Source: Anaerococcus vaginimassiliensis
GTDB taxonomy: Bacteria > Bacillota > Clostridia > Tissierellales > Peptoniphilaceae
DNA: 64,000 nucleotides
Assembly (NCBI RefSeq): GCF_900626155.1
Contig: NZ_LR130844.1
Location: forward strand, 1,143,109-1,207,108
Reading direction: 5' to 3'
The position numbers were made by a program, and so were the translations under genes. How positions within the stretch are numbered: position 1 is the stretch's first letter; each line of letters opens with the position of its first letter. Under the pieces are notes generated by a model that was given only the letters and a program-made list of their open reading frames with translations, did no database searches and was not told the DNA's origin. Shown here piece by piece: positions 4,272-14,407 of the stretch.

Positions 4272-5717
4272 ATGGGAAAGTATTCTGAAGATGCAAGATT
4301 GTTGCATCAATATATAGGAGGAGATAGTAATATCTCATCAGTGACCCACTGCGTTACGAGGATGCGTTTTGTATTAAATGATCCAAAACTTGCAGATGTA
4401 GAAAAGATAGAAGATCTTCCTTCTGTAAAGGGATCTTTTACTCAAGCTGGGCAATTTCAAGTAATTATTGGTAATGATGTCGACCAGTTCTACAACGATT
4501 TTATGGAAATATCTCATGCTACTGAAAAGAGCAAGGATGAGGTAAAAAAAGATGCGGTCAAAAATCAAAATGCCCTACAAAGAATTTCTTCAGTTCTTGC
4601 AGAGATTTTTGCTCCACTAATTCCTGCGATTATCGTCGGTGGTTTGTTATTAGGATTTAGAAATATCTTAGGAGAGATGCCTTTTGATAGTCTCGGTGGC
4701 AAAACAATAATAGAGACATCTGTTTTTTGGAACGGTGTCAATGATTTTCTATGGTTAATCTGTGAGGCTATTTTCCATTATCTACCTGTTGGAATAACCT
4801 GGTCTATCACTAGAAAAATGGGTACAACTCAAATCCTCGGTATAGTCCTAGGTATTTGTTTGATATCGCCAAACTTACTTGCAAATGCATACTCAATTGC
4901 AGGTGGTGGAGAAGTTCCTGTGTGGGATTTTGGATTCTTTACAATAGATAGGATAGGATACCAAGCTCAAGTTATCCCAGCAATGCTTGCTGGTTTCTTA
5001 TTAGTATATCTTGAAAGATTTTTCAAAAAAGTTATCCCACAAGCAATATCAATGATTTTCGTACCACTATTTTCATTAATACCTGCTGTACTTTTGGCTC
5101 ACTTAGTTTTAGGTCCAATAGGCTGGAAGATAGGTGCTCTTATTTCACAAGGAGTTTATAGTGGACTTACATCTGGCCTAAACTGGTTATTTGCAGCTGT
5201 ATTTGGTTTCTTCTATGCACCACTTGTTATAACTGGTCTTCACCATATGACAAATGCAATCGACCTACAACTTGCAAATGATTTTGGTGGAACAATTCTT
5301 TGGCCAATGATCGCCCTATCCAATATAGCTCAAGCATCTGCAGTAGTTGCTATAATCTTCCTACATATGGGAGATAAGAAGGAAGAACAAATATCTGTTC
5401 CTGCAGCTATTTCTGCATATCTTGGAGTAACAGAGCCAGCACTATTTGGTATCAACATCAAATATGGATTCCCATTCATAGCTGGTATGATTGGTTCTGC
5501 CCTTGCAGCTGTATTTTCAGTATCAACATCTACAATGGCATACAATATAGGTATAGGTGGACTTCCTGGAATTCTTTCAATCATGGGAGGATCTAGGTTA
5601 AACTTTGCTATAGCAATGGTAATTGCGATAGTAGTTCCTGTTATATTGACAGTTATGTTTGAAAAGAAAAACTTATTCCACAACAAGATAGAATTTAAAA
5701 CACCAAGTTTTAGTTAG
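4272..5717 (+). CDS. treB: PTS trehalose transporter subunit IIBC
   Basis: Phosphotransferase permease of 481 residues that imports trehalose as trehalose-6-phosphate. The EIIB domain (about residues 1-90) carries the phosphorylated Cys27 in the motif SSVTHCVTRMRF. The EIIC domain follows from about residue 105, with the family turn GVTEPALFGINIKYG near residue 385. The order of motifs matches E. coli TreB closely from memory (KGSFTQAGQFQVIIG, FRNILGEMPF, LHHMTNAIDLQ). There is no EIIA domain, so a glucose-type EIIA must come from elsewhere. AAGGAGGG precedes the ATG. treC starts 7 bases after the stop, and no treR regulator is present in the window. Confidence 0.94.
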   Translation: MGKYSEDARLLHQYIGGDSNISSVTHCVTRMRFVLNDPKLADVEKIEDLPSVKGSFTQAGQFQVIIGNDVDQFYNDFMEISHATEKSKDEVKKDAVKNQNALQRISSVLAEIFAPLIPAIIVGGLLLGFRNILGEMPFDSLGGKTIIETSVFWNGVNDFLWLICEAIFHYLPVGITWSITRKMGTTQILGIVLGICLISPNLLANAYSIAGGGEVPVWDFGFFTIDRIGYQAQVIPAMLAGFLLVYLERFFKKVIPQAISMIFVPLFSLIPAVLLAHLVLGPIGWKIGALISQGVYSGLTSGLNWLFAAVFGFFYAPLVITGLHHMTNAIDLQLANDFGGTILWPMIALSNIAQASAVVAIIFLHMGDKKEEQISVPAAISAYLGVTEPALFGINIKYGFPFIAGMIGSALAAVFSVSTSTMAYNIGIGGLPGILSIMGGSRLNFAIAMVIAIVVPVILTVMFEKKNLFHNKIEFKTPSFS

Positions 5718-5724
5718 GAGTAAT

Positions 5725-7386
5725 ATGAACTTAGGAAAACAAGTAATCTACCAAGCTTATCCAAGGTCCTTCAAGGACACTAGTGGAAATGGCATTGGAG
5801 ATTTAAAAGGAATCAAAGAAAAAATACCCTATCTTAAAGGATTAGGAATTGACATGGTATGGCTAAATCCATTTTTCATATCGCCACAAAATGACAATGG
5901 ATATGATATAGCTGATTATTACCATGTAGATCCAGCCTTTGGTACAGACGAAGATCTTGATGATTTGATTAGTGAAATGGACAAGGCAGGTATTAAACTA
6001 ATGTTTGATATGGTGCTAAATCATACATCGACAGAGCATGAATGGTTTAAAAAAGCCTTGGATGGAGATGAAAAATATCAAAACTATTATTATATAAGAG
6101 AAGGTAAGGATGGAGGATATCCAACAAATTGGCAATCAAAGTTTGGCGGCCCTGCTTGGAATGAATTTGGAGATACTGGAAAATATTATCTATGCCTATT
6201 TGATAAAACACAAGCTGACCTAAATTGGCACAATCCTGATTTAAGGGATGAACTATATAAGATAGTAAACTACTGGATAGATAAGGGGATAGATGGATTT
6301 AGGTTTGACGTATTAAATGTAATAGGAAAAGATCAAATACTTGAAGATTCTTCGGGCATAGAGAGTGAAGAGAAAAAATTATACACAGATACACCAATAG
6401 TTCACAAATGTATTAGAGAGTTAAACAATCATACCTTTGGCAAAAATCCAGAAATAATAACAGTTGGGGAAATGAGCTCTACCAATATAGAAAATTCTAT
6501 AATGTATTCATCTGCTGAGGGAAACGAACTATCCATGGTCTTTAACTTCCACCATTTGAAGGTAGACTATGAAAATGGCGACAAGTGGACAGATGCCAGA
6601 TTTGATTTTTCTAAGCTAAAAGATACCTTAAACAAATGGCAAGTAGAAATGCAAGAAGGCGGCGGTTGGAATGCTCTATTTTGGAACAACCACGATCAAC
6701 CAAGAGCAAATAATAGGTTTGGAGATGTAGAAAACTTCCCTTATGAAACTGCTACCATGCTTGCTCAAACTATCCACATGATGAGGGGAACGCCTTACAT
6801 CTACCAAGGTGAAGAAATAGGAATGACTGATCCAGATTTTAAATCAATTGACGATTATAAGGATATAGAAAGTCATAACGCCTACAAGAAGCTTCTTGAA
6901 AGCGGTAAAAACGAAGCTGAAGCCTTTAATATAATAAATAAAAAATCTAGAGATAACTCCAGAACCCCTATGCAATGGGATGATACAGAAAATGCTGGTT
7001 TTACAAGTGGAAAACCATGGATTGCTGTAAGTGATAATTATAAAACTATCAACACCAAAAAGGCTATGGCAGACAGAAGCTCAATATATTTCTACTATAG
7101 AAAATTGATAGAACTTAGAAAAGATGAAAATATAATCTCAGATGGTTTGTATTTCCCAATTCTTAAAGATGATGATAAAATCTTTGCCTATATCAGAGAA
7201 TATGAAGGAGAAGTCCTTATAAATATGAACAACTTCTCTAAAGATTATGTAGAAGTAGATCTAGAAAATATCCTAGAAGATTATGACAAATTCACCTATC
7301 TTTTAGGTAACTATGGAGAAAAGAAAATAGAAAAAATAATAAAACTTGCTCCATATGAAAGTCTTGCTTTTATAAAGAGAGTATAA
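5725..7386 (+). CDS. treC: Alpha,alpha-phosphotrehalase (GH13)
   Basis: Cytoplasmic glycoside hydrolase of 553 residues that splits trehalose-6-phosphate into glucose and glucose-6-phosphate, completing the pathway begun by TreB. The (beta/alpha)8 signatures are complete: MVLNHTS near 96-102, GFRFDVLNV with nucleophile Asp195, VGEMSS with acid/base Glu249 and NNHDQPR with Asp324. A C-terminal beta domain closes with YLLGNYG and YESLAFI. Length is normal for the family. Oligo-1,6-glucosidases share this fold, but adjacency to treB decides the name. It is probably transcribed with treB and ends at a bidirectional terminator. Confidence 0.94.
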   Translation: MNLGKQVIYQAYPRSFKDTSGNGIGDLKGIKEKIPYLKGLGIDMVWLNPFFISPQNDNGYDIADYYHVDPAFGTDEDLDDLISEMDKAGIKLMFDMVLNHTSTEHEWFKKALDGDEKYQNYYYIREGKDGGYPTNWQSKFGGPAWNEFGDTGKYYLCLFDKTQADLNWHNPDLRDELYKIVNYWIDKGIDGFRFDVLNVIGKDQILEDSSGIESEEKKLYTDTPIVHKCIRELNNHTFGKNPEIITVGEMSSTNIENSIMYSSAEGNELSMVFNFHHLKVDYENGDKWTDARFDFSKLKDTLNKWQVEMQEGGGWNALFWNNHDQPRANNRFGDVENFPYETATMLAQTIHMMRGTPYIYQGEEIGMTDPDFKSIDDYKDIESHNAYKKLLESGKNEAEAFNIINKKSRDNSRTPMQWDDTENAGFTSGKPWIAVSDNYKTINTKKAMADRSSIYFYYRKLIELRKDENIISDGLYFPILKDDDKIFAYIREYEGEVLINMNNFSKDYVEVDLENILEDYDKFTYLLGNYGEKKIEKIIKLAPYESLAFIKRV

Positions 7387-10189: not shown

Positions 10190-10210
10190 TTTGCCAAGAC
10201 TTTCCATAAA

Positions 10211-11278
10211 ATGTACATTAGATTTATGAAGAAAATAGAGTCTTTACTTATTTATGAGGAAGATACAAAACAATTAAATAAAATTTGCGAGAAGATAGAT
10301 TTCTACAAGAAGATACCTATTGATACTGTAAAAATATGCTTATCAAATGACATAAATGAGAAATATCTAGAAGATTTATTGTATTTAAATAAAAAATTAT
10401 CTTGTGAAAATCTACTATTAATGATTAAAATTAATCTTTTAGAAATATCTTCAAATCTCTTAGGAGTAAGTTATAAAAATGAAAGTTTTGACAATCCCAA
10501 AATACAAAAAGCATCTTTTTCTTTTCTAAACTTTTTAGTAAAAAGAGGAATACGAGCCTTTGATTTTGGGGATGTCGAATATTTGGTGAAAAATAATCCT
10601 AGCGATAAGAAAATAATTGAGACAAGTAGACTTATAAATAAAAATTTAAGAAGTCTTAGTAATGATGTAATAAGTCTTTGCGATTTATCTTATAAGTACA
10701 TTGACTTTTATGATATCTTAACTGGTGATAGTGGTTTTGATTTTTCATATATTTGTAGACCAATAAATATATTTGATGAACAATCGAGGAAATTGCTAAA
10801 AGAAACTTACCAAAATGGTGGGAGAATTTCTTATAAGATAGGTTTTACTAAAAGTAGGTCAAAGAATCTCTCCTTTGTAAAAGAAAGTCTAATTTTAACA
10901 AGTCTTACCCTTTTAGATTCGCCTTTATATATGAAGGGTTCGGAATCGTATTTTGATGTAGTTGGACCAATTAAGTCCATCGAAGATTATTTGGAAGAAA
11001 TTTATACTATAAAAGAAAATTTTTCTGATTTACCTAGAAAAGAGTTTTTTGAGATAATAAAAAAAGATAAGGACATCTTTGCCTATAGCCTAAAAATAGG
11101 AGATAATAAGTTTTTATTTATTGGAAACTTAACTCAAAAAGAAATTTTAGTAAATATCTCTATGTATGTTTCAAATTATAGTGAGTACAAACTTCTCCTA
11201 GGAAATTATGGAAAGAGATCTATGGTTAAAAATTTATTATTAAGATCATTTGAAGGATTAATTTTTGTCAGAAAATAA
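10211..11278 (+). CDS. Degenerate GH13-like protein, probable pseudoenzyme related to TreC
   Basis: Uncharacterised 355-residue protein (350 if the ATG at 10226 is used; neither start has a clear ribosome site). By eye it aligns along its length with the phosphotrehalase at 5725-7386. The C-termini share KDIFAY, LLGNYG and an (Y/F)ExLxF(I/V) ending. ICEKIDFYKK matches IKEKIPYLKG, LVKRGIRAFDF matches WIDKGIDGFRF, and SPLYMKGSE matches TPYIYQGEE. The catalytic residues are not conserved: VGEMS reads SLCDLS near 155-160, NNHDQPR reads roughly GFTKSR near 211-216, and the nucleophile context is reshaped to FDFGDV. It is about 200 residues shorter, mainly lacking the NHTS region and the 330-480 insert. 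The frame is uninterrupted, so it is probably expressed. Its role is unknown; sugar sensing or a structural role are possible but unsupported. Confidence 0.7.
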   Translation: MYIRFMKKIESLLIYEEDTKQLNKICEKIDFYKKIPIDTVKICLSNDINEKYLEDLLYLNKKLSCENLLLMIKINLLEISSNLLGVSYKNESFDNPKIQKASFSFLNFLVKRGIRAFDFGDVEYLVKNNPSDKKIIETSRLINKNLRSLSNDVISLCDLSYKYIDFYDILTGDSGFDFSYICRPINIFDEQSRKLLKETYQNGGRISYKIGFTKSRSKNLSFVKESLILTSLTLLDSPLYMKGSESYFDVVGPIKSIEDYLEEIYTIKENFSDLPRKEFFEIIKKDKDIFAYSLKIGDNKFLFIGNLTQKEILVNISMYVSNYSEYKLLLGNYGKRSMVKNLLLRSFEGLIFVRK

Positions 11279-11373: not shown

Positions 11374-12660
11374 ATGAAATTTGTTTCGTTATTAATAACA
11401 ATAGCCCTATATTATGTCCTCAAGAAAATGGCTGATAAAAAAGTTTCATTTGGTAGGAGGGTTATTTTTGCGGCTATTATAGGTCTAGTTTTAGGTTATT
11501 TCTTCGCTGGATCTACTGAATATGTAGCGGTATTTGGAAGTATCTATATCAGACTTCTTCAAACTATGGTAATCCCATTGTTATTTGCTACAATCATTAG
11601 AACTATGCTAAATACAGGATCTCTGGGTAAATTAAAATCAATCGGTCTAAAGACTGTTGGTATTTTAAGTTTACACAATGTATTGGGATCTACCATCGGT
11701 CTTATCCTTGCGGTTAGTTTTGGAATAGGTAAAGGTGCAAATATTCCTCTACCAAAGGCAAGCGATGTAAAGGAAGTGCCAACTGTTGCTGAAACTATAA
11801 CTAACTTCTTCCCATCAAACATAGTTGCTAACGCAGCTGATGGCATGGTAGTTCCAGTGATTATATTTTCAATATTTGTTGGTGTTGCAGCTTTAAAATT
11901 GATTGATAATGGAGAAGAAGGTAAAGTTGTTGCCTTTAAAGATTTTATAGATTCTTTTGCAGAAATTATCTATAAACTTACAAGCATGATTACAAGCTTT
12001 ACTCCATTTGCAGTTTTATCGTTAATGGCTAATGCTGTTTCAGAGATTGATGTAGAAGCTGTTAAGCCATTATTACTAATTCTTGTATTAAATTATGTAG
12101 CAAGTGCTTTCCACTCATTTATAACAACAGGAGCTTTAGTTTCAATATTTGCCAAGGTAAATCCTGTAAAATACTTCAAAAATGCTTGGCCTGTCCAAGT
12201 AGTTGGATTTACTACTCAATCATCTATGGGTTCACTTCCAGTAAATATTGACAATCTTGAAAATACCCAAGGTGTTTCAGAAGAAATTTCTTCATTCGTA
12301 GCTCCAGCAGGTGCTACTATGGGTATGCCTGGTTGTGCGGGATTCTGGCCAGTTATGAATGCTGTTCTTACAATAAATATTATGGGACTAGATTTTGCAG
12401 GTTTTGATTATGTAAAACTAGTTCTAATAGCTTTACTCGTTTCTCTAGGAACAGTTGGAGTGCCTGGTACAGCTACAATAGCTACAACTGCTGTATTTGC
12501 AGCTATGGGTCTACCACTTGAGATGGTTGTACTACTTGCACCAATCTCATCTCTTGCTGATATGGGACGTACATCTACAAACGTAGTTGCAGCAAACTCT
12601 TCAGCTGTAATTGTAGCAGCAAGTGAAGGAAAATTAAATAGAGAAGTATTCAACAGTTAA
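11374..12660 (+). CDS. Dicarboxylate/amino acid:cation symporter, TcyP (cystine)-like
   Basis: Sodium- or proton-coupled symporter of the DAACS family, 428 residues, eight helices plus two re-entrant hairpins. The N-terminal helix followed by KKVSFGRRVIFAAIIGLVLG, and the hairpin segment PAGATMGMPGCAGFWPVM, resemble the L-cystine transporter TcyP of bacilli more than glutamate carriers. The glutamate-type NMDGTA hairpin of the second DAACS in this window (40996-42273) is absent here. The last segment, ADMGRTSTNV, is the usual substrate-binding helix 8. AGGAGGGA precedes the ATG. It is monocistronic between two terminators. Confidence 0.85.
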   Translation: MKFVSLLITIALYYVLKKMADKKVSFGRRVIFAAIIGLVLGYFFAGSTEYVAVFGSIYIRLLQTMVIPLLFATIIRTMLNTGSLGKLKSIGLKTVGILSLHNVLGSTIGLILAVSFGIGKGANIPLPKASDVKEVPTVAETITNFFPSNIVANAADGMVVPVIIFSIFVGVAALKLIDNGEEGKVVAFKDFIDSFAEIIYKLTSMITSFTPFAVLSLMANAVSEIDVEAVKPLLLILVLNYVASAFHSFITTGALVSIFAKVNPVKYFKNAWPVQVVGFTTQSSMGSLPVNIDNLENTQGVSEEISSFVAPAGATMGMPGCAGFWPVMNAVLTINIMGLDFAGFDYVKLVLIALLVSLGTVGVPGTATIATTAVFAAMGLPLEMVVLLAPISSLADMGRTSTNVVAANSSAVIVAASEGKLNREVFNS

Positions 12661-12800: not shown

Positions 12801-13481
12801 ATGACAGAGAAAAAGTATATTCCCCAAGTTTACTCCAAACTTAGAAAATCTTTTATAAAAGTTCCAGAAGAAATATACAAGGCAAGCGGGATAATGATTT
12901 TTGAAAAAAGAATCAAATCCTTGCTCTTTACTACAGATCTTGCAATTATAAGAAATTCTAATGCAGATTCTATAATGGCAGTCTACCCATACACCCCACA
13001 AAACACCATAGCTAGGTCAATCATGGATGTATCTAATGTTCCTTGTTTTATAGGTGTTGGCGGTGGAACAACCCAAGGAATAAGATCAAAATACATAGCC
13101 ATAGAAGCAGAGCTATCTGGTGCCTATGGAGTTGTAGTAAACTCCCCTATGCCTAACGAAGATATAAAGGCAATAGCTGATTTTGTTGATATTCCTGTAA
13201 TTGCATCAGTTGTAAGCTTTGAAAATGACTATAAAGGAAAAATCGAAGCTGGAGCTCAGATCTTAAATGTCTCAGGTGGAAAATACACAGCTGATTTGGT
13301 TAGGGAAATTAGGAAAAACATAGGAGATGAATTCCCAATAATTGCAACTGGTGGAAAAACTGGTGAGCAAATACTTGATACTATAAATGCTGGCGCCAAT
13401 GCAATTTCATATACACCACCATCAAGTGCAGAAGTTTTTGGATCTATGATGGATACTTATAGAAATGAGGATATACATTGA
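12801..13481 (+). CDS. Predicted TIM-barrel protein of unknown function
   Basis: Soluble protein of 226 residues without a signal peptide. Alternating strand/helix periodicity and late glycine-rich turns (VGGGTTQG near 94-101, NVSGGKYT near 159-166, IATGGKTGEQI near 184-194, followed by AGANAISY) look like a phosphate-binding (beta/alpha)8 barrel of the indole-glycerol-phosphate or FMN type. I cannot assign an enzyme. AGTCGGAGG precedes the ATG. The next gene starts inside this stop codon (TTGA overlap), so the two products are probably made in fixed ratio. A palindrome and terminator upstream mark it as the first gene of the operon. Confidence 0.7.
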   Translation: MTEKKYIPQVYSKLRKSFIKVPEEIYKASGIMIFEKRIKSLLFTTDLAIIRNSNADSIMAVYPYTPQNTIARSIMDVSNVPCFIGVGGGTTQGIRSKYIAIEAELSGAYGVVVNSPMPNEDIKAIADFVDIPVIASVVSFENDYKGKIEAGAQILNVSGGKYTADLVREIRKNIGDEFPIIATGGKTGEQILDTINAGANAISYTPPSSAEVFGSMMDTYRNEDIH

Positions 13482-14407
13482 TTTATCCGGGATATTTAAC
13501 AGATGTGTGTGGAATAAAGCTAGGTCATGCCTCTGATTTTGAAGGAGGAACTGGACTAAGTGTAATCATTCCTGATCCAAACAACACAGCAGCAGTTGAA
13601 GTTAGAGGATCTGCCCCAGGAACTAGGGAAACTGACCTACTAAATCCAATCAATCAAGTAAGTGAGGTAAATGGAATTATTCTATCTGGTGGGTCTGCCT
13701 ACGGACTAGATGCAGCAACTGGCCTTATGGAAGAGCTTGAAAAAGATGGGAGAGGTTTTGATGTTGGCTGCGGCATAGTTCCGATAGTAAGTCAGGCTGT
13801 TTTATTTGACCTTGCCTACAAAAATCCCAAGGCAAGACCAAATGCAAAAATGGCGAAACTAGCCTATAAAAATGCAAGCTATGATAACAAGGAATGTGGA
13901 ATAATAGGAGCTGGAACTGGAGCTACAGTTGGAAAAGCAATGGGCATGGATAATGCCTTTAAATCTGGTCTTGGTCAGGCTTCAATGACCCTTGGAGACC
14001 TAACAGTTTCAGCTATAGTTGCTGTAAATGCCTTTGGAGATATCTTCGATTATGAAAAAGGTAAACAGATTGCAGGACCCATGGTAAATGGCAAGATGCT
14101 TTCTACTATGGATAATATAGAAAATATTGCCAAAAGTTTTTCTGAAGTTGAAGGCAAAAATACAACTATAGGTCTTGTTGCAACCAATGCAAGTTTTAAT
14201 AAGACTGAGCTTACTAAAATTTGTCAGATGACTCATGACGGATATGCAAGATCAATTAATCCAGTCCATACTATGTTTGATGGGGATACTATATTTGCCC
14301 TAGCAACAAACAAGGTCAAGGCTGATGTTACAATAGTTGGGGCGTTAGCAAGTATGGTTATGTCAAGAGCCATAGCAAATGCTATTTACACTTCAAAAGA
14401 AAAGTAA
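13478..14407 (+). CDS. P1/S58-family peptidase (DmpA/NylC-like)
   Basis: N-terminal-nucleophile hydrolase of 309 residues, related to the aminopeptidase DmpA and 6-aminohexanoate oligomer hydrolase NylC. These proteins cut themselves between Asn and Thr, freeing the Thr nucleophile; the matching site here is Asn228-Thr229 in the motif NTTIGLVATN. Other family landmarks are GVRxGHA-like IKLGHAS at the start, EVRGSAPGTRETDLL, GGSAYGLDAATG, and GAGTGATVGK. The only start that fits the family N-terminus is TTG at 13478, which overlaps the previous stop by four bases and has GAGG eight bases upstream. Probable substrates are small peptides or beta-amino amides; not determinable here. Confidence 0.87.
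   Translation: MIYPGYLTDVCGIKLGHASDFEGGTGLSVIIPDPNNTAAVEVRGSAPGTRETDLLNPINQVSEVNGIILSGGSAYGLDAATGLMEELEKDGRGFDVGCGIVPIVSQAVLFDLAYKNPKARPNAKMAKLAYKNASYDNKECGIIGAGTGATVGKAMGMDNAFKSGLGQASMTLGDLTVSAIVAVNAFGDIFDYEKGKQIAGPMVNGKMLSTMDNIENIAKSFSEVEGKNTTIGLVATNASFNKTELTKICQMTHDGYARSINPVHTMFDGDTIFALATNKVKADVTIVGALASMVMSRAIANAIYTSKEK

Follow-up and report, generated by a model that had tools for sequence, protein, structure and literature searches.

A TreC-lineage GH13-fold pseudoenzyme kept at one syntenic site in Anaerococcus

Background

Those GH13 pseudoenzymes encountered here for which a role is known, the SLC3 heavy chains and plant ISA2, are eukaryotic. The SLC3 protein 4F2hc (SLC3A2) is an animal protein, membrane-anchored and extracellular, with an SLC7 transporter as its partner. 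In passages of one source, its ectodomain is described as consisting of domains A and C and carrying none of the three catalytic residues (PMC8537225). Plant ISA2 is presented, in passages of another, as a non-catalytic GH13 paralogue that works in a complex and is kept by selection (PMC12510319). A third source reports that the alpha-amylase BmaN1 retains activity although His takes the place of its stabiliser Asp, and already notes a small group of bacterial GH13 homologues with substitutions over the whole triad (PMC5347038).

Here we describe a gene in a 64,000-nucleotide stretch of Anaerococcus vaginimassiliensis DNA (the window) whose product is a real GH13-fold pseudoenzyme of the TreC (trehalose-6-phosphate hydrolase) lineage. 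TreC (TIGR02403) forms the neighbouring clade and has the same order of barrel and beta-sandwich and an LLGNYG-type C-terminus; unlike TreC, the pseudoenzyme is without the triad, domain B and the MQWD region, and is mostly basic rather than acidic. Like the 4F2hc ectodomain (GH13_34), it joins a non-enzymatic GH13 barrel to a domain C, and a profile of the family matches 4F2hc (E = 3e-7, profile positions 21-306). In contrast to 4F2hc, it is bacterial, has no anchor and groups with TreC, and it would have had an origin separate from SLC3, no sequence of which was in our tree. With ISA2 it shares the state of a non-catalytic GH13 paralogue under selection; ISA2, however, belongs to another GH13 branch (compared with GH13_11) and has a known partner, ISA1, and a place in starch metabolism (passages of PMC12510319). 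It resembles the BmaN1 group as a GH13 member short of canonical triad residues, whereas BmaN1 itself is active with an altered stabiliser (parts of PMC5347038). The titles and abstract openings of the literature on GH13 pseudoenzymes that we covered, which included few subscription journals, held no description of this Anaerococcus family, and among the listed publications on Anaerococcus with trehalose, GH13, glycoside hydrolases or pseudoenzymes none concerned this gene by its title.

Results

An earlier reading of the letters alone, which we call the original prediction, had described an intact frame encoding a catalytically dead relative of the neighbouring phosphotrehalase. The frame in the ORF list is indeed uninterrupted over 355 amino acids (Table 1), and 350 open codons would arise by chance with a probability of about 7e-14 at the base composition of the window (GC 0.33). 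Given these odds, the dN/dS values and the distribution across genomes, we rejected both a chance ORF and a relic. Translation probably begins at Met6 rather than at the annotated start, because the sister clade (L031-L033) begins at the equivalent place and -10-like bases surround 10211. The promoter scan returned 24 sites against 20.8 expected by chance, and the -10-element argument against the 10211 start is therefore weak. We found no clear ribosome-binding site for the window gene.

Table 1. Features of the window and loci of a second GH13 lineage, with coordinates
Feature	Coordinates	Strand	Remarks
TreB, trehalose PTS EIIBC	4272..5717	+	TIGR01992, 667 bits
TreC phosphotrehalase, intact triad	5725..7386	+	TIGR02403, 807.6 bits; cut-off 799.05
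MacB/FtsX-type ABC transporter, 905 aa	7436..10153	-	Pfam ABC_tran and FtsX; divergent neighbour, candidate functional partner
Possible promoter TTGCCA-17-TACATT	10191..10219	+	Consensus scan only; overlaps annotated start 10211
TreC-derived GH13 pseudoenzyme	10211..11278	+	355 aa from the annotated start; 350 aa from 10226, the likely true start
Sodium:dicarboxylate (SDF) symporter	11374..12660	+	PF00375, E = 6.4e-96; next gene downstream of the pseudoenzyme
H226, unnamed TIM-type protein	12801..13481	+	Constant neighbour, 26/26 loci
S58 (P1/DmpA-type) peptidase	13478..14407	+	PF03576, E = 5e-39; constant neighbour, 26/26 loci
Second dead GH13 lineage, L060	1294-2628	-	
Second dead GH13 lineage, L061	1368-2693	+	
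Second dead GH13 lineage, L062	1233-2564	-	
Second dead GH13 lineage, L104, L105, L106			

Searched as a single sequence, the protein gave nothing above cut-off in Pfam or in NCBIfam, where the TreC model scored best, through its C-terminus (residues 278-352, E = 1e-4); its score against TIGR02403 was 21.1 bits, below the cut-off that the neighbouring TreC passes. The original prediction had the two proteins aligning along their length, a claim that BLASTP narrows to the last 77 residues (E = 8e-9) plus one segment in the centre (E = 0.002), the remaining segments being noise; the LLGNYG that it pointed out near both C-termini is there. We then used a profile of 25 copies, for which the PDB held 117 different matching sequences within E = 0.01; first among the best 60 was the oligo-1,6-glucosidase 1uok (E = 2e-31), matched in three collinear stretches across barrel and C-domain, the first of them weak. 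AlphaFold (AF2) models of moderate confidence (pLDDT 68.7 for the window protein, 77.9 for a relative) have a (beta/alpha)-barrel followed by a C-terminal beta-sandwich, as the GH13 fold does, and Foldseek against the PDB gave GH13 proteins as the best matches of both (E = 4.0e-15 and 1.1e-18), TreA included. All 25 copies group together (100/100) in a tree built from 58 GH13-type proteins, where they fall on the same side as the TreC sequences of the genus (98/94); this tree joins long branches, and the exact joint is uncertain. The window TreC, with D-E-H-D present, is among the nearest active relatives. Profile, fold and alignments thus agree with a GH13-like relative of TreC without catalytic residues, and no other family with an active site of its own appeared in the Pfam, NCBIfam or PDB-profile searches.

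The pseudoenzyme is 198 residues shorter than TreC (355 vs 553 aa), a difference due to the missing domain B, beta1-alpha1 loop and segment around the TreC “MQWD” (411-420); none of the 25 copies has the MQWD region or domain B, whose place is between strand 3 and helix 3. The whole triad of Asp195, Glu249 and Asp324 was found in no copy in any of three alignments. Nine copies, including that of the window, keep none of its residues, one keeps the nucleophile alone, six keep nucleophile and stabiliser, and nine keep the acid/base; for one of these nine, a single alignment of the three also places an Asp at 324 (Asp at 324 in 6/25 copies in two alignments and 7/25 in the third). Arg193 and His323 are lost from all 25. 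All 26 active-type sequences of the same set have D-E-H-D, a count and a conservation comparison from which one odd row, parG016, was left out. The replacements that the original prediction had read by eye hold for the window copy, with Asp at Glu249, a gap at Asp324, and a nucleophile region altered by Asp195 to Gly and the conserved Arg193 to Asp. The claim of inactivity is strongest for the nine triad-less copies, because activity can survive the loss of a single residue, as BmaN1 illustrates.

We next assessed selection on the gene. Omega was 0.12-0.37 in 11 close pairs and 0.12-0.22 in ten of them, with an upper bootstrap bound of at most 0.31 in ten, the eleventh (dS 0.04) reaching 1.13. 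In a four-taxon codon model, the window branch, which is long and saturated, had an omega of 0.075 (0.154 with one omega), and omega = 1 was rejected (p = 9e-14). The frame is thus kept by purifying selection, as had been supposed, and a chance frame or a decaying relic is unlikely. Neighbouring genes had omega values of 0.03-0.14, save one low-dS symporter pair at 0.29, and in 38 within-pair comparisons the dN/dS of the pseudoenzyme was usually above that of its neighbours (by 1.0- to 7.3-fold, with a median of 3), a pattern compatible with either weak or specialised constraint.

Intact copies of 330-360 aa were found in 25 of 31 Anaerococcus genomes, all at one syntenic site. A protein query against 101 genomes matched 31, and 26 of these, counting that of the window, are of the genus; the match in one of the 26 (G026) is its TreC alone, and the five matches outside the genus are full-size GH13-type frames of 554-580 aa. 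We scanned one genome for each of 84,980 species and found that 74 stretches matched the pattern and eight were confirmed, all eight in Anaerococcus (e.g., A. marasmi, A. octavius, A. nagyae and A. provencensis). The 25-copy profile found full-length copies in Anaerococcus only among 130 genomes of the host family, and a search of 199 genomes of the order (E up to 1e-25) gave matches in 19, all Anaerococcus, and the remaining frames matched there were TreC, 471-564 aa long and from these 19 genomes; in the family and order searches, the candidates scored were a subset of the first-look candidates. The profile also touched short frames in other genera, which were rejected as members of the family: that of G120 is a fused treB/treC remnant keeping NHD, that of G042 an amylase-type gene split over two frames, and those of G041 are TreC frames at contig ends. 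The G120 frame (L111:1389-2291, 300 aa), from another genus of the host family, has a TreB-like start followed by the C-terminal half of TreC with NHD and QGEE, and resembles what a deletion would leave of a treBC locus.

In three of the remaining Anaerococcus genomes (G002, G005 and G018), the same locus was seen and the pseudoenzyme was absent; in G017, where the contig begins beside H226, all 15 candidates were scored and none matched. The original prediction had named broken, neutrally evolving relatives as evidence against it: frames are broken in two of the 31 genomes, and the intact copies tested are under purifying selection. One of the two, in G026, is a remnant (L054:6997-7482) beside an intact treC; the other is in G003, whose assembly is doubtful because other genes around the broken copy are also broken. 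Being missing or broken in six of 31 genomes, the pseudoenzyme is dispensable. Its presence on the tree takes six changes, at least five of them on well-supported branches, and its own tree has 16 of 22 splits in common with a tree of H226 and the S58 peptidase over the species they share. G026 also represents a natural loss of the pseudoenzyme with TreC retained.

At all 25 loci, the pseudoenzyme lies upstream of H226 and the S58 peptidase on the same strand. The gene directly downstream is the symporter in nine, a UDP-glucose-dehydrogenase-like gene in ten and H226 in six, and in these six the gap between pseudoenzyme and H226 is -11 to 20 bp. In the window, the gene sits between the divergent ABC transporter and the symporter. 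H226 was found in 99 of the 130 genomes of the host family and is therefore probably older than the newcomer pseudoenzyme gene; the S58 peptidase was found in 30 of the 31 genus genomes. H226 itself is a conserved TIM-type protein with weak aldolase/FMN-oxidase similarity only, paired with the peptidase in 26 of 26 loci but present without it in G003.

A role tied to the tre locus, on which the original prediction had speculated, did not hold up across the genus, where the constant neighbours are H226 and the peptidase and not treBC. A TreC match of at least 686 bits was present in 12 of 25 carriers, counting a shortened TreC frame (G027) and a divergent TreC (G020), vs 1 of 6 non-carriers (Fisher p = 0.36); frames matching the TreC model, most of them only weakly, were found in every one of the 31 genus genomes. 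The missing TreR that had been remarked on was also missing from our search, in which no TIGR02404 match above cut-off was found genome-wide, the best (115.7 bits) being at another locus. This sub-cut-off result neither supports nor excludes sensing by the pseudoenzyme.

Finally, we characterized the protein itself. Only N306, R345 and E348 are invariant over the 25 copies, and all three are in the C-domain. Eight positions are conserved in at least 20 of 25 copies and not in active relatives (F260, D288, Q309, K310, L313, D322, R336 and N341), and seven of them fall in the C-terminal beta-sandwich, F260 being the exception; the window copy has Y260 and N322 where the family has F260 and D322. 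The mean pI is 8.4 (range 5.3-9.9, above 7 in 21/25) and that of TreC 5.0, and the mean net charge is +5.4 vs -25.6 for TreC, with copies ranging from -7 to +27.5. A basic surface is not universal, because charge varies, 4 of 25 copies have a pI below 7, and the C-domain was neutral in one of the four copies checked. We found no transmembrane stretch by Kyte-Doolittle hydropathy, the top 19-residue mean being 1.57 in the window copy and 1.91 in any copy. To judge from these features, the protein is probably soluble, and the C-domain would be its binding interface.

Discussion

The tree, the synteny and the alignments strongly indicate that a TreC-type gene underwent duplication in the Anaerococcus ancestor or earlier, that one copy came to lie upstream of the H226/S58-peptidase pair, and that this copy lost domain B and the catalytic machinery and retained a GH13-type barrel and a C-terminal beta-sandwich. 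Mostly vertical inheritance under purifying selection, with about six separate losses, appears to have followed. The gene has stayed intact in most Anaerococcus examined despite the lost catalytic machinery, and the pseudoenzyme therefore probably has a non-enzymatic job; a non-enzymatic protein is also what we infer from the sequence itself. It may now be a cytosolic, non-catalytic binding subunit or adaptor whose mostly basic C-terminal beta-sandwich docks on an acidic protein or another polyanion, and docking could alter the stability or activity of the partner, much as the inactive GH13 paralogues 4F2hc and plant ISA2 act through binding. Candidate partners are the divergently encoded ABC transporter and another GH13 enzyme. 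A dead GH13 copy derived from TreC and serving now as a cytosolic binding subunit is the best explanation as a whole, in which we place moderate confidence.

Among the neighbours, the MacB-like ABC transporter is the best-placed candidate, and the pseudoenzyme may, somewhat doubtfully, be its dedicated cytosolic partner or regulator, the two genes sharing an intergenic control region. An ABC match (E up to 1e-150) is present in 18 of 31 genomes, counting G015, where the ABC gene is in pieces, and not G014, which has ABC fragments; all 18 have the pseudoenzyme (Fisher p = 0.0023). In 17 of 25 loci the transporter lies next door in divergent orientation, 57-98 bp away, and of six independent tree pairs an average of 3.6 had both genes going the same way, with none in which they went opposite ways. 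Both are broken in G003, though that region has further broken frames and its assembly is the doubtful one. On the other hand, 7 of the 13 genomes without an intact ABC match retain the pseudoenzyme, which is intact in G014 and G015 beside the fragmented transporter, and physical linkage alone could explain joint loss. Since the Fisher test takes related genomes as independent and the tree-based test was not significant (median p = 0.25), the transporter stays a candidate partner, and linkage accounts for the co-occurrence as well. An ISA2-like regulatory role, in mixed oligomers with TreC or another active GH13 of the cell, is rather unlikely: non-catalytic ISA2 binds ISA1 (passages of PMC12510319), the pseudoenzyme is on the TreC side of the tree, and frames matching the TreC model occur, mostly weakly, throughout the genus, but 13 of 25 carriers lack a TreC match of at least 686 bits, and the data tie the pseudoenzyme to no particular GH13 by co-occurrence.

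The same 13 carriers led us to reject the trehalose or trehalose-6-phosphate sensor for treBC that had first been speculated on. Such a sensor would suit a window in which treBC lies 2.8 kb upstream and a genome with no TreR above cut-off, yet the protein has no DNA-binding domain above cut-off in Pfam or NCBIfam, and we consider a sensor very improbable. Catalysis kept or gained through a remodelled site is improbable to a lesser degree. Six copies keep nucleophile and stabiliser, nine keep the acid/base, and BmaN1 is active despite its Asp-to-His change (parts of PMC5347038); against this, the full triad occurs in no copy, the window copy has none of it, and the barrel has no residue invariant over the 25 copies, unlike a typical enzyme family. 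That the gene is a slowly decaying, functionless relic would be in keeping with its loss or breakage in six genomes and its evolving faster than its neighbours in most comparisons; with omega at 0.12-0.22 in ten of 11 close pairs, neutrality rejected on the window branch and intact copies in 25 genomes, we give this scant credence. The match to 4F2hc, whose ectodomain likewise consists of domains A and C without the triad (passages of PMC8537225), and a symporter adjoining the pseudoenzyme in nine loci raise the prospect of an SLC3-like helper of an amino-acid transporter, here the SDF symporter. We rejected this reading as unproven and highly improbable, given that the symporter is not adjacent in 16 of 25 loci, that no membrane anchor was found, and that 4F2hc ectodomains are extracellular and partner SLC7 rather than SDF transporters.

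The binding subunit that we favour has wider bearing. The family is genus-wide, with copies that keep two, one or none of the triad residues and an intact TreC in several of the same genomes, and the path from enzyme to binding protein is therefore testable residue by residue. Such genes should not be annotated as alpha-glucosidases. Should the partner be the neighbouring exporter, this would be a new bacterial use of the GH13 fold. It is conceivable, as a tentative proposal, that Anaerococcus holds a bacterial counterpart of SLC3 and ISA2 in the form of a soluble, basic GH13 pseudoenzyme without domain B, acting as a cytosolic regulator or adaptor of an ABC exporter or another cell-envelope system, together with an independent second dead GH13 of 441-444 aa in the same genus.

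This second dead lineage was seen in six Anaerococcus genomes (G028, G016, G023, G020, G002 and G011) and forms a separate clade (100/100). Domain B is absent in all three members aligned with TreC. In six of six, the nucleophile is replaced by Lys, Asn or Leu and His323-Asp324 is replaced, while “QG.E” is retained; dN/dS was 0.15 and 0.08 in the two computable pairs, the second with saturated dS. An additional TreC-like GH13 frame, at G029:C7:425995-427637, is interrupted by stops.

We also observed that the copies of A. nagyae (G012, L038) and A. octavius (G015, L041) differ by a dS of only 0.04, and their symporters by 0.03, whereas dS for the same pair is 1.4 in H226 and 1.2 in the S58 peptidase. 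Near-identical pseudoenzyme and symporter genes next to a diverged H226/S58 pair suggest a recent exchange of this segment between the two species.
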